From Bacillota bacterium (GTDB lineage Bacteria > Bacillota_I > Bacilli_A > Erysipelotrichales > Coprobacillaceae), in assembly GCA_030540195.1 (NCBI GenBank), contig JAUNWT010000008.1:1-46888 (forward strand): DNA of 46,888 bases, written 5' to 3'. The notes beneath the pieces were generated by a model. That model saw nothing but the letters and a program-made list of their open reading frames with translations, had not been told where the DNA came from and made no database searches. The translations under genes and the position numbers were made by a program. Shown here piece after piece: positions 3,292-24,741 of this stretch (positions are counted from its first letter, which is position 1; the number at the start of each line of letters is the position of its first letter).

Positions 3292-3315
3292 GAAAACACT
3301 TTAGAAAATAAATAG

Positions 3316-3344
3316 TTGATATACGATTTAATTGTAGATAAAAT
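3316..3344 (+). promoter_or_regulatory. Promoter of the type III antitoxin-like RNA
   Basis: A -35 element TTGATA at 3316-3321 and a -10 element TAAAAT at 3339-3344 are separated by exactly 17 bases, predicting a start near 3351. This places the promoter directly before the repeat-bearing RNA and after hflX. Confidence 0.7.
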
Positions 3345-3350
3345 AGAATA

Positions 3351-3481
3351 GTAAATAAAACTGCCTACTAGGAGGCGAAGTGATAAATACCCTAGACAAT
3401 CGATTAATCGGCCACCCAGTTGGCAAGGAGAAAAATACACTGGTGGAAAAAAAGAAAGTTCAGATGAGCTTTCTTTTTTTT
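3351..3481 (+). ncRNA. Type III antitoxin-like RNA (CptI/ToxI-like), two pseudoknot repeats
   Basis: A short transcript is predicted between a 17-bp-spaced promoter and an intrinsic terminator. Inside are two degenerate repeats with a 48-nt period. Each begins with a 14-nt hairpin: GCCT-ACTAGG-AGGC at 3363-3376 and GCCA-CCCAGT-TGGC at 3411-3424. An A-rich stretch ending AAATAC follows, then a segment complementary to the hairpin loop. CTAGG (3368-3372) can pair with CCTAG (3391-3395), and CCAGT (3416-3420) can pair with ACTGG (3439-3443), giving an H-type pseudoknot in each repeat. Loop pairs and the fourth stem pair change in a compensatory way between repeats. Type III antitoxins such as ToxI and CptI are tandem-repeat pseudoknot RNAs encoded ahead of a terminator and their toxin gene; here the next gene is a broken CptN/ToxN-like ORF. 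The architecture is seen; the family name is inferred. Confidence 0.72.
3451..3481 (+). terminator. Intrinsic terminator between antitoxin RNA and toxin remnant
   Basis: The arms AAAGAAAGTTC (3451-3461) and GAGCTTTCTTT (3466-3476) form an 11-bp stem with one G-U pair around an AGAT loop, followed by a T-run. Type III toxin-antitoxin loci characteristically carry a terminator at this point, which limits toxin transcription relative to antitoxin. Confidence 0.85.
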
Positions 3482-3487
3482 GTGTAA

Positions 3488-3972
3488 GAAAAACTCTATT
3501 TCATAAGATATGAATTTATAGAAAAATATAATCCTTATTATAATCTCATGGAAAATAAATCTTTTGGAACAAAAAGACCTACATATTTTTGTTTTAGAGA
3601 TAAAATGAATACAGAAATCTTGTGGTTTGTCCCAATGTCTACAAAATATGAAAAATATTTGAAAATAAATGAGGATATAAAGCAAAAAATAAATAGAGAA
3701 CCTAATAATTTTGTTTTTGCAAGAAATGTTGGTGGAAAAAAAACGGTTTTTTAATTCAAAATATGTTTCCTACATTAGAAAGATATATTGATAGAGAATA
3801 TACTAGGCAAGGGATGACAATTAAAATACCTAAATCAGTAAAAAAAGAAATTGGGAAAAAAGCAAGAAATATTTTCATGTTTACAAATAAAGGTGTTAAA
3901 GCAACTTTTACAAATTTACCAGAATTCATAAAGGATATTGAAAATGAATTGGAAACAAAAATAGAAAGATAG
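3488..3972 (+). pseudogene. Frameshifted CptN/ToxN-like type III toxin
   Basis: Two ORF pieces in different frames together read as one protein of about 160 residues. The first frame is open from 3488 (after an in-frame TAA at 3485) and reads EKLYFIRYEFIEKYNPYYN, then MENKSFGTKRPTYFCFRD, ILWFVPMSTKYEKY and GGKKTVF, stopping at 3752-3754. The second frame continues LIQNMFPTLERYIDREY to the stop at 3970-3972. Adding one T to the T6 run at 3747-3752, or one A to the A8 run at 3736-3743, joins them as GGKK..FLIQNMFP. There is no ATG, GTG or TTG in frame between 3488 and 3548 and no clear ribosome site, so the N terminus also looks damaged. ...RPY/RPT...FVP(M/I)SSK-type motifs and the RNA upstream suggest a type III endoribonuclease toxin. 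Loss of function is likely, though slippage on the homopolymers or sequencing error cannot be excluded. Confidence 0.68.
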
Positions 3973-3993
3973 GTAAACTATCTTTCTATTTTT
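3957..3993. terminator. Bidirectional terminator between toxin remnant and DUF1846 gene
   Basis: A perfect 16-bp inverted repeat: AAAAATAGAAAGATAG (3957-3972) and CTATCTTTCTATTTTT (3978-3993) around GTAAA. It overlaps both stop codons of the convergent genes. Confidence 0.85.
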
Positions 3994-5470
3994 GATATAT
4001 ACGATTAAATTGGAATTTATCTTCTGAAGTTAAACGAATACCTAAACGTTTTAAAGTATCAATATCTGTTTCAGATAGGATAACAGATGAATGTGCTTCA
4101 CAGTATTGTAATTGTTCAATACAAGATAAAGCTTTTTTAGCGTTTTCATTATTATTTGCGGAAATAGATAATGAAAGTAAAACTTCATCTGTATGTAAAC
4201 GAGGATTCTTATTTTTTAAAATTCCTTTTTTTAGTTTAGCAACAGGTTCAATAACTTCAGGTTCAATGAGTAAAATATCATCATCGATATTGGCAAGATA
4301 CTTTAAAGCATTTAATAAACATGCTGAAGCACTTCCAAGTAAAGATGTTGTTTTACCAGTAATAATATGTCCATCATTAAGTTCAATCGCAAATCCTGGT
4401 TCATTGGTTTGTTCTTCAATTTCTAATGCAGGATTGACACATTTACGATCTGTAGCTTTTAAATCTAAAGAAAGCATGATGGCTTCAATTTTAGAGATAG
4501 CTGATCTATTAACAAGCCCACGTTTAAAATCAAGTTTTGTTTGATAATAACGACGAATGATTTCTTGTTTACTTGCTTCTTTACATGCTTCATCATCAAT
4601 AATCGCATTTCCAGCCATATTTACTCCCATGTCTGTAGGTGATTTATATGGACAAGTTGACATGATTTTTTTGAATGTTGATTCTAAAACAGGGAAGATT
4701 TCAACATCTCTATTATAGTTGACAGTTGTTTCGTTATAAGCTTCTAAATGGAATGGGTCAATCATATTGACATCATTTAAATCTGCCGTTGCTGCTTCAT
4801 AAGCTAAGTTTACAGGATGTTTTAAAGGAATATTCCAAATAGGGAATGTTTCAAACTTCGCATAGCCTGCTTTAATACCATGAGTATATTCATGATAAAG
4901 TTGTGATAAACAAGTCGCCATTTTTCCACTTCCTGGACCAGGTGCTGTTACGACAACGAGTGGTTTTGTTGTTTCAATGTAATCATTGATTCCAAATCCT
5001 TCTTCTGAAACGATTTTTTCAATATCGTTTGGATAACCTGCAATAGGATAATGTCTAAAAACTTTAATACCTAAGTTTTCTAGTTTCTTTTGAAAAGCAA
5101 TAGCGTGTACTTGATTTTCAAAACGTGTAATTGTAACACTTCCAACATAGAGTCCAATGTTTTGGAAAGCATCAATCAGTCTTAATACTTCTAAATCATA
5201 AGTGATTCCTAAATCACCACGCATTTTATTGTTTTCAATGTCATTAGCGTTAATGACAATAATAATTTCTGCATCTTGTTTTAGTTCTAATAACATTTTT
5301 AATTTACTATCAGGTTCAAATCCTGGTAAAACACGAGATGCATGGTGGTCATCAAATAATTTACCACCAAATTCTAAATAAAGCTTATTATCAAATTGTT
5401 TGATACGTTCTTTGATATGTTTTGATTGTAATTCAATGTATTTTTCGTTACTAAATCCAATTTTTCTCAT
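3986..5470 (-). CDS. DUF1846 domain protein
   Basis: A 494-residue cytoplasmic protein matching the DUF1846 family along its whole length. Recognisable stretches are the N-terminal [34 protein letters not shown] near residue 35, [17 protein letters not shown] near 85, and the glycine-rich nucleotide-binding-like [21 protein letters not shown] near 175. Structures of the family suggest a nucleotide-binding fold but no activity is established, so I give none. The start codon is 12-13 bases after AGGGAG. It is monocistronic: divergent from argF and convergent with the toxin remnant. Sequence quality and codon use look like the surrounding housekeeping genes. Confidence 0.9.
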
Positions 5471-12425: not shown

Positions 12426-12431
12426 GATTTT

Positions 12432-12660
12432 AAACTCGAGGACTAAAAGAGTAGTCTTTATGGAAATTAAAGCGATCCTATGTTGATGGAAGATAGGAAT
12501 GGAAATAAAGATGAAGCGCATTTACGAGAGAAAAGATGGAAATAAAAGTATATCTTTTGGTAGATCTGCCTTAAAGATGAAAGAGGTTGTAAGGTCAACT
12601 TGCAACAATTAGAGTGGTAACGCGGTCAATCGTCTCTATTTATAGAGACGATTTTTTATT
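12432..12660 (+). promoter_or_regulatory. T-box leader, apparent Arg (CGC) specifier
   Basis: A tRNA-sensing attenuator upstream of argC. The T-box core AGAGTGGTAACGCGG (12611-12625) differs from the consensus AGRGTGGNACCGCGG at one position. The terminator CGTCTCTATT-TATAGAGACG plus T-run (12631-12657) follows. In Stem I, TCTTTAT pairs with ATAAAGA. The 5' side of the specifier loop carries AGTA, and the 3' side reads GAAGCGCA at 12514-12521, which places CGC, an arginine codon, after the GAA of the loop-E motif. The base of Stem I pairs CTCG with CGAG. Uncharged tRNA-Arg would stabilise the antiterminator and switch the operon on. The T-box itself is firm; the exact specifier register is inferred and agrees with the downstream genes. 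Confidence 0.9.
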
Positions 12661-24560: not shown

Positions 24561-24637
24561 GGCGGACGTGGCGAAGTGGTTAACGCACCGGATTGTGGCT
24601 CCGGCACTCGTGAGTTCGATTCTCATCGTCCGCCCCA
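24561..24637 (+). tRNA. tRNA-His (GTG), copy 1
   Basis: A complete cloverleaf of 77 bases including an encoded G-1, opposite C73, and a 3' CCA. The acceptor is GCGGACG / CGTCCGC, the anticodon stem CCGGA / TCCGG carries GTG, and the T arm has TTCGATT. The extra G at the 5' end is diagnostic of tRNA-His. Confidence 0.96.
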
Positions 24638-24664
24638 TATTTTGACTGTTTTATATAGATACTT

Positions 24665-24741
24665 GGCGGACGTGGCGAAGTGGTTAACGCACCGGATTGT
24701 GGCTCCGGCATTCGTGAGTTCGATTCTCATCGTCCGCCCCA
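24665..24741 (+). tRNA. tRNA-His (GTG), copy 2
   Basis: Identical to copy 1 except for one C-to-T change in the variable loop (24711), and 104 bases downstream of it. A T-run immediately follows and may end the transcript. Confidence 0.96.

Follow-up and report, generated by a model that had tools for sequence, protein, structure and literature searches.

The tandem pair of pseudoknots encoded at positions 3363-3443 of a 46,888 nt window (the whole stretch of Coprobacillaceae DNA analysed here, contig JAUNWT010000008.1) is very probably the CptI-type antitoxin RNA of a CptIN locus that arrived recently, has since had its toxin gene broken and now probably represents a decaying remnant. The RNA is identified as a type III antitoxin because it is followed by a terminator and then by pieces of a CptN toxin. 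This toxin class is known, with a crystal structure, and the window locus is a divergent, toxin-broken member of the CptIN family. The features of the locus are as follows.

3292 to 3990 (ends approximate), + strand: whole module of ~690 bp, probably inserted, absent at the same place in four genomes of the same genus.
3316 to 3344, + strand: promoter-like site, TTGATA-17-TAAAAT, 18 nt before repeat 1, matching 10 of 12 consensus positions.
3363 to 3395, + strand: antitoxin repeat 1, with S1 at 3363-3366/3373-3376, L1 at 3367, S2 at 3368-3372/3391-3395 and L2 at 3377-3390.
3411 to 3443, + strand: antitoxin repeat 2, with S1 at 3411-3414/3421-3424, L1 at 3415, S2 at 3416-3420/3439-3443 and L2 at 3425-3438.
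3446 to 3481, + strand: Rho-independent-type terminator between antitoxin and toxin, with a 16 bp stem and a T run (-16.7 kcal/mol, z -5.1).
3488 to 3751, + strand: first half of the cptN toxin pseudogene, with no start codon and an in-frame TAA at 3485-3487.
3742 to 3972, + strand: second half of the cptN toxin pseudogene in another frame, the break lying at or near an 8-A run at 3736-3743.
3960 to 3994, no strand assigned: inverted repeat (a minus-strand self-match), probably the module-end terminator, situated where relatives have another terminator.

Each repeat is 33 nt long, the first arranged as GCCT-A-CTAGG-AGGC-(14 nt)-CCTAG and the second as GCCA-C-CCAGT-TGGC-(14 nt)-ACTGG, and the two share the geometry of an H-type pseudoknot comprising a 4 bp S1, a 1 nt L1, a 5 bp S2 that abuts the 3' strand of S1 (0 nt between) and an A-rich 14 nt L2 (GAAGUGAUAAAUAC and AAGGAGAAAAAUAC). 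They start 48 nt apart and are identical at 22 of 33 positions. Six of the nine base pairs are the same in both, three are changed on both sides (T-A to A-T in S1; T-A to C-G and G-C to T-A in S2) and none is broken. When 11 substitutions were simulated at random, all nine pairs were kept in 0.3% of trials, and were kept along with at least three two-sided changes in 0.03%. The first-pass annotation had described two repeats preserving one H-type pseudoknot through compensatory changes, among them a swap between T-A and A-T in the first stem, and five nucleotides of complementarity between each loop and its downstream segment; all of this is present exactly (CTAGG with CCTAG, CCAGT with ACTGG). 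Its statement that only an AAATAC linker is conserved in sequence went too far, as the two copies also agree in GCC/GGC, in three S2 pairs and at 10 of the 14 L2 positions. S1 is hypothesised to continue across a 2 nt bulge, such that ACU-GCCU would pair with AGGC-GA-AGU in repeat 1 and leave a 9 nt L2 (GAUAAAUAC); this is put no more firmly because repeat 2 supports just two of the three extra pairs (U-A and C-G, with one G-G mismatch).

Single pseudoknots of this size are frequent by chance, with 94 found on the window's plus strand and 69 expected, and it might be supposed that the pair reflects nothing beyond fortuitous complementarity in A+T-rich intergenic DNA. That reading is hardly credible for the tandem arrangement, however: in a scan for this pseudoknot class, the two same-geometry copies starting at 3363 and 3411 form the sole such tandem on either strand of the window, none appeared in 3000 dinucleotide shuffles of the 190 nt region, the expectation is ~0.05 per shuffled window, and the pair sits just where the CptIN family predicts. 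Tandem Repeats Finder did not detect the window repeats because they are too divergent. Nested RNA folding favours repeat-repeat pairing over the hairpins and is uninformative here, since the program cannot draw pseudoknots. As for the flanking signals, promoter-like sites of the quality of TTGATA-17-TAAAAT occur at chance level in the region, so this site is weak, while the terminator at 3446-3481 was unlisted by a simple terminator scan that demands three G-C pairs.

The toxin assignment rests on NCBIfam NF047359 ('type III toxin-antitoxin system CptIN family toxin'), which matches the first half of the pseudogene over profile positions 2-85 (E=6.4e-18) and the second over positions 84-145 (E=1.3e-13), the two halves thus meeting at the same point of the profile. 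As the gene is split, neither half by itself reaches the 90 bits required of a whole protein (they score 65 and 51). PDB 4RMO, the CptN of known crystal structure, is likewise matched by the first half (E=1.7e-5) and by the second (E=2.1e-8). The frame at 3488-3751 reads ...KRPTYFCFRDKMNTEILWFVPMSTKYEKY... and that from 3742 reads ...FLIQNMFPTLERYIDREYTRQG..., and the catalytic-region motifs persist, with PMSTK and DREYT in the window toxin corresponding to PLSSR and EREYT in 4RMO. The toxin pieces were named by NCBIfam but by neither Pfam nor PADLOC, and the ToxN/AbiQ profile PF13958 matched neither half. In the family tree the window toxin lies on a very long branch of unsure placement, with a highest identity of 39%, and the genome assembly, rated 97% complete, contains no other CptN.

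With an in-frame stop, no usable start and a frame break, the toxin open reading frame is not intact, and for this reason the locus is classed as a remnant rather than a working CptIN system. That the toxin is nonetheless still made, either because ribosomes or RNA polymerase slip past the break at the 8-A run or because the break is an assembly error, is improbable. It is true that the frames join at a homopolymer run, that conserved motifs are still recognisable on either side and that a GTG at 3482 lies near the expected start; this GTG, however, directly precedes the TAA at 3485, no other in-frame standard start is found from there to 3548, and the stretch from terminator to toxin gene offers neither a usable start codon accompanied by a recognisable ribosome-binding site nor any apparent Shine-Dalgarno sequence. 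General assembly trouble is unlikely, since the neighbouring genes on the same contig are unbroken, although a local error at the toxin break is possible.

Type III loci in general consist of tandem pseudoknots, a terminator and a toxin gene (PMC5086642). The CptIN family has been described in Coprococcus catus, Ruminococcus torques and Eubacterium rectale, with the structure deposited as PDB 4RMO, and the E. rectale CptI has a one-nucleotide L1, a 9 nt L2 forming an extended A-minor twist and a kink U at position 30 (PMC4627078; the E. rectale sequence used here was taken from a primer in that paper). The window locus resembles these systems in having two tandem H-type pseudoknots with a one-nucleotide L1, followed by a terminator and then a CptN-homologous toxin; in the A-rich L2 sequences, which end AUAAAUAC and AAAAAUAC, resembling AUAUAAAUG in E. 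rectale; and in a toxin that keeps the Ser-Ser/Thr-basic motif and the conserved tyrosine region. It differs in its period of 48 nt rather than 45, an S1 of just 4 bp, an L2 of 14 nt instead of 9, the abutment of S2 on the 3' strand of S1, a sequence outside the CptI model and a broken toxin gene. With the ToxIN systems (Pectobacterium atrosepticum ToxIN and AbiQ; PF13958) it shares the general plan and mechanism class, but ToxI repeats are ~36 nt long and of other sequence, and PF13958 matches neither half of the window toxin.

About 80 distinct CptN loci were found by searching the order, class and phylum of this bacterium and by scanning 85,000 species genomes; most of them, both among related genomes and throughout Bacillota, have two, or sometimes three, H-type pseudoknots spaced 45-52 nt apart directly before the toxin. 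From these, 59 distinct repeats were aligned, with their phase set by an AAAT motif and consensus similarity, not by pairing. S1 is paired in 98.0% and S2 in 96.0% of cases, giving 96.9% of cells paired against 84.0% in shuffles, and when the partner strand is slid by 1-3 columns pairing falls to 22-50%. Two-sided changes occur in 10 of 11 pairs (all six in S2 and four of five in S1), with 88 cells changed on both sides compared to 20.2 in shuffles. The loop-downstream complementarity, whose loss in homologous loci had been named beforehand as the observation that would count against the fold, is therefore maintained at the level of the family, and the earlier view of an RNA structure under selection is supported by compensatory changes within the same fold in homologous CptIN loci. 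No close relative of the window subtype was found, and the covariation thus applies to the family, not to orthologues of these two repeats; likewise, plasmids, phages, viral contigs and genomes of the same family and order yielded no close relatives of the module.

The first-pass annotation had implied a novel riboswitch-like RNA, a candidate rejected here since a terminator and CptN pieces follow the repeats and no riboswitch or other Rfam family matches the window RNA at gathering score. Small riboswitches such as SAM-II likewise have an H-type pseudoknot with an A-rich loop in the minor groove, as in the CptI type, and preQ1-I is another small pseudoknot riboswitch. The A-minor twist of CptI has itself been likened to SAM-II (PMC4627078). 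The window RNA is set apart from these by its repetition and its link to a toxin gene. A cis-regulatory element that senses some signal and controls read-through of the terminator would fit H-type pseudoknots followed by a terminator, but is very improbable and already largely refuted by the CptN context: the sole downstream gene is the broken toxin, the next being convergent; no Rfam riboswitch matches; and the same layout precedes CptN in dozens of genomes, in loci that were found through CptN. Elsewhere in the window, a T-box leader is present on the + strand at 12430-12640 (RF00230, 116.8 bits), and two tandem tRNA genes lie at 24562-24738.

The less ordinary aspect of the window RNA is that it falls outside the covariance model of standard CptI and is undetected by Rfam. 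The model, built from the 59 repeats, gives no match at 3363-3443; it recognises the loci L018, L034, L048 and L094 and misses L019, L023, L044 and L105, all of which precede CptN homologues, and sequence divergence is therefore common in the CptI class. With an L2 of 14 nt against the usual 9-10, and S2 directly adjoining the 3' strand of S1, where 2 nt usually intervene, the geometry of the window repeats is at the edge of the range seen among CptIN loci. Membership of the CptIN family is set by the toxin, a fit to the antitoxin primary sequence being usual but not defining. No CptI family was detected by Rfam even in the intact CptI loci tested, and a search at gathering score likewise failed to detect the ToxI repeats in the tested loci, which is part of the reason why the window RNA looked unknown. 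Another CptI subtype outside the standard model is found at L023 (G143:C7:23334-23786), where a divergent CptN (67 bits) is associated with a pair of short pseudoknots, spaced by ~40 nt, and with linkers that carry a repeated GTAGACAGATTGAAGAAA.

In the two nearest genomes (G001 and G002), whose flanking DNA is 93-98% identical, the gap between hflX and the convergent PRK13663-family gene is ~40 bp and contains one terminator, and G004 and G005 similarly have just a terminator at this site. As the site is empty in these relatives, the ~690 bp module is most simply explained as an insertion, probably a recent one, between the two genes in this genome's lineage. Within the genus, a further genome carries a CptIN remnant (L003) at a different place and in a far more advanced state of decay, and the empty sites and two remnants within one genus suggest rapid gain followed by loss of CptIN modules.

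In an intact locus of this type, the repeat RNA would be made from one promoter, and a leaky terminator would let a minority of transcripts read on into the toxin gene. Whereas the layout and the folds can be read from the DNA itself, the subsequent steps are modelled on the E. rectale CptIN (PMC4627078): the toxin would be an RNase cutting the RNA between repeats, each freed pseudoknot would sit on the toxin and inhibit it, and two proteins and two RNAs would form a ring (a heterotetramer). Following the proposed recent arrival of such a module between hflX and the PRK13663-family gene and the later breakage of the toxin gene, an antitoxin RNA would have been left behind without a working cognate toxin, and most likely the window RNA is at present a relic.

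The RNA might instead be a still-working orphan antitoxin, kept for protecting the cell from CptIN toxins borne on plasmids or phages, although this is improbable. All nine pairs are kept in both repeats despite the broken toxin, and the presence of three type III loci of the ToxN family in this genome shows that modules of this sort are in circulation here. Against this, the toxin may have been broken too recently for the RNA to decay, and no close relative of the window CptN was found in plasmids, phages, viral contigs or the same order. Moreover, a CptI antitoxin is reported to act selectively on its own toxin (PMC4627078). Slightly less probable still is a more specific form, in which a divergent CptI-type antitoxin (its S1 either shorter or continued over the bulge, with a 9 nt L2 in the latter case) has outlasted its own toxin and is retained to neutralise CptIN toxins that enter the cell.

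At least three ToxN-family loci are carried by this genome besides the CptIN remnant. Two of them, L118 (G000:C82:3331-3810) and L119 (G000:C112:28468-28989), are intact ToxIN loci, the former having two ToxI-like repeats and the latter three. The third, L120 (G000:C150:15891-16331), which lies outside the window and is preceded by ToxI-like repeats (TCGGAGAACCAGAGCCTTAGTTGG), encodes a 571 aa ToxN-family toxin fused to a HipA-like kinase region (PF13958, E=3e-19; PF07804, E=4e-5, under the PF07804 curated cut-off); such a joining of a type III toxin to a HipA-like kinase seems unusual. In other genera of the same family, the proteins of L012, L013, L014 and L015 are ~190-280 aa long and match CptN weakly (41-51 bits) over their C-terminal ~135 aa. 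The N-terminal region of the L012 protein has no Pfam match, and its gene adjoins a relaxase-like gene. These proteins are possibly CptN-fold RNases with a different, protein-encoded form of control.

An apparently unknown structured RNA is thus settled as a type III antitoxin, which suggests that type III loci may be recognisable from their tandem pseudoknots alone. The gap in Rfam means that intergenic antitoxin RNAs can be missed, and can resemble new riboswitches. Were the orphan RNA indeed to protect its host, anti-addiction would have an example among type III systems.
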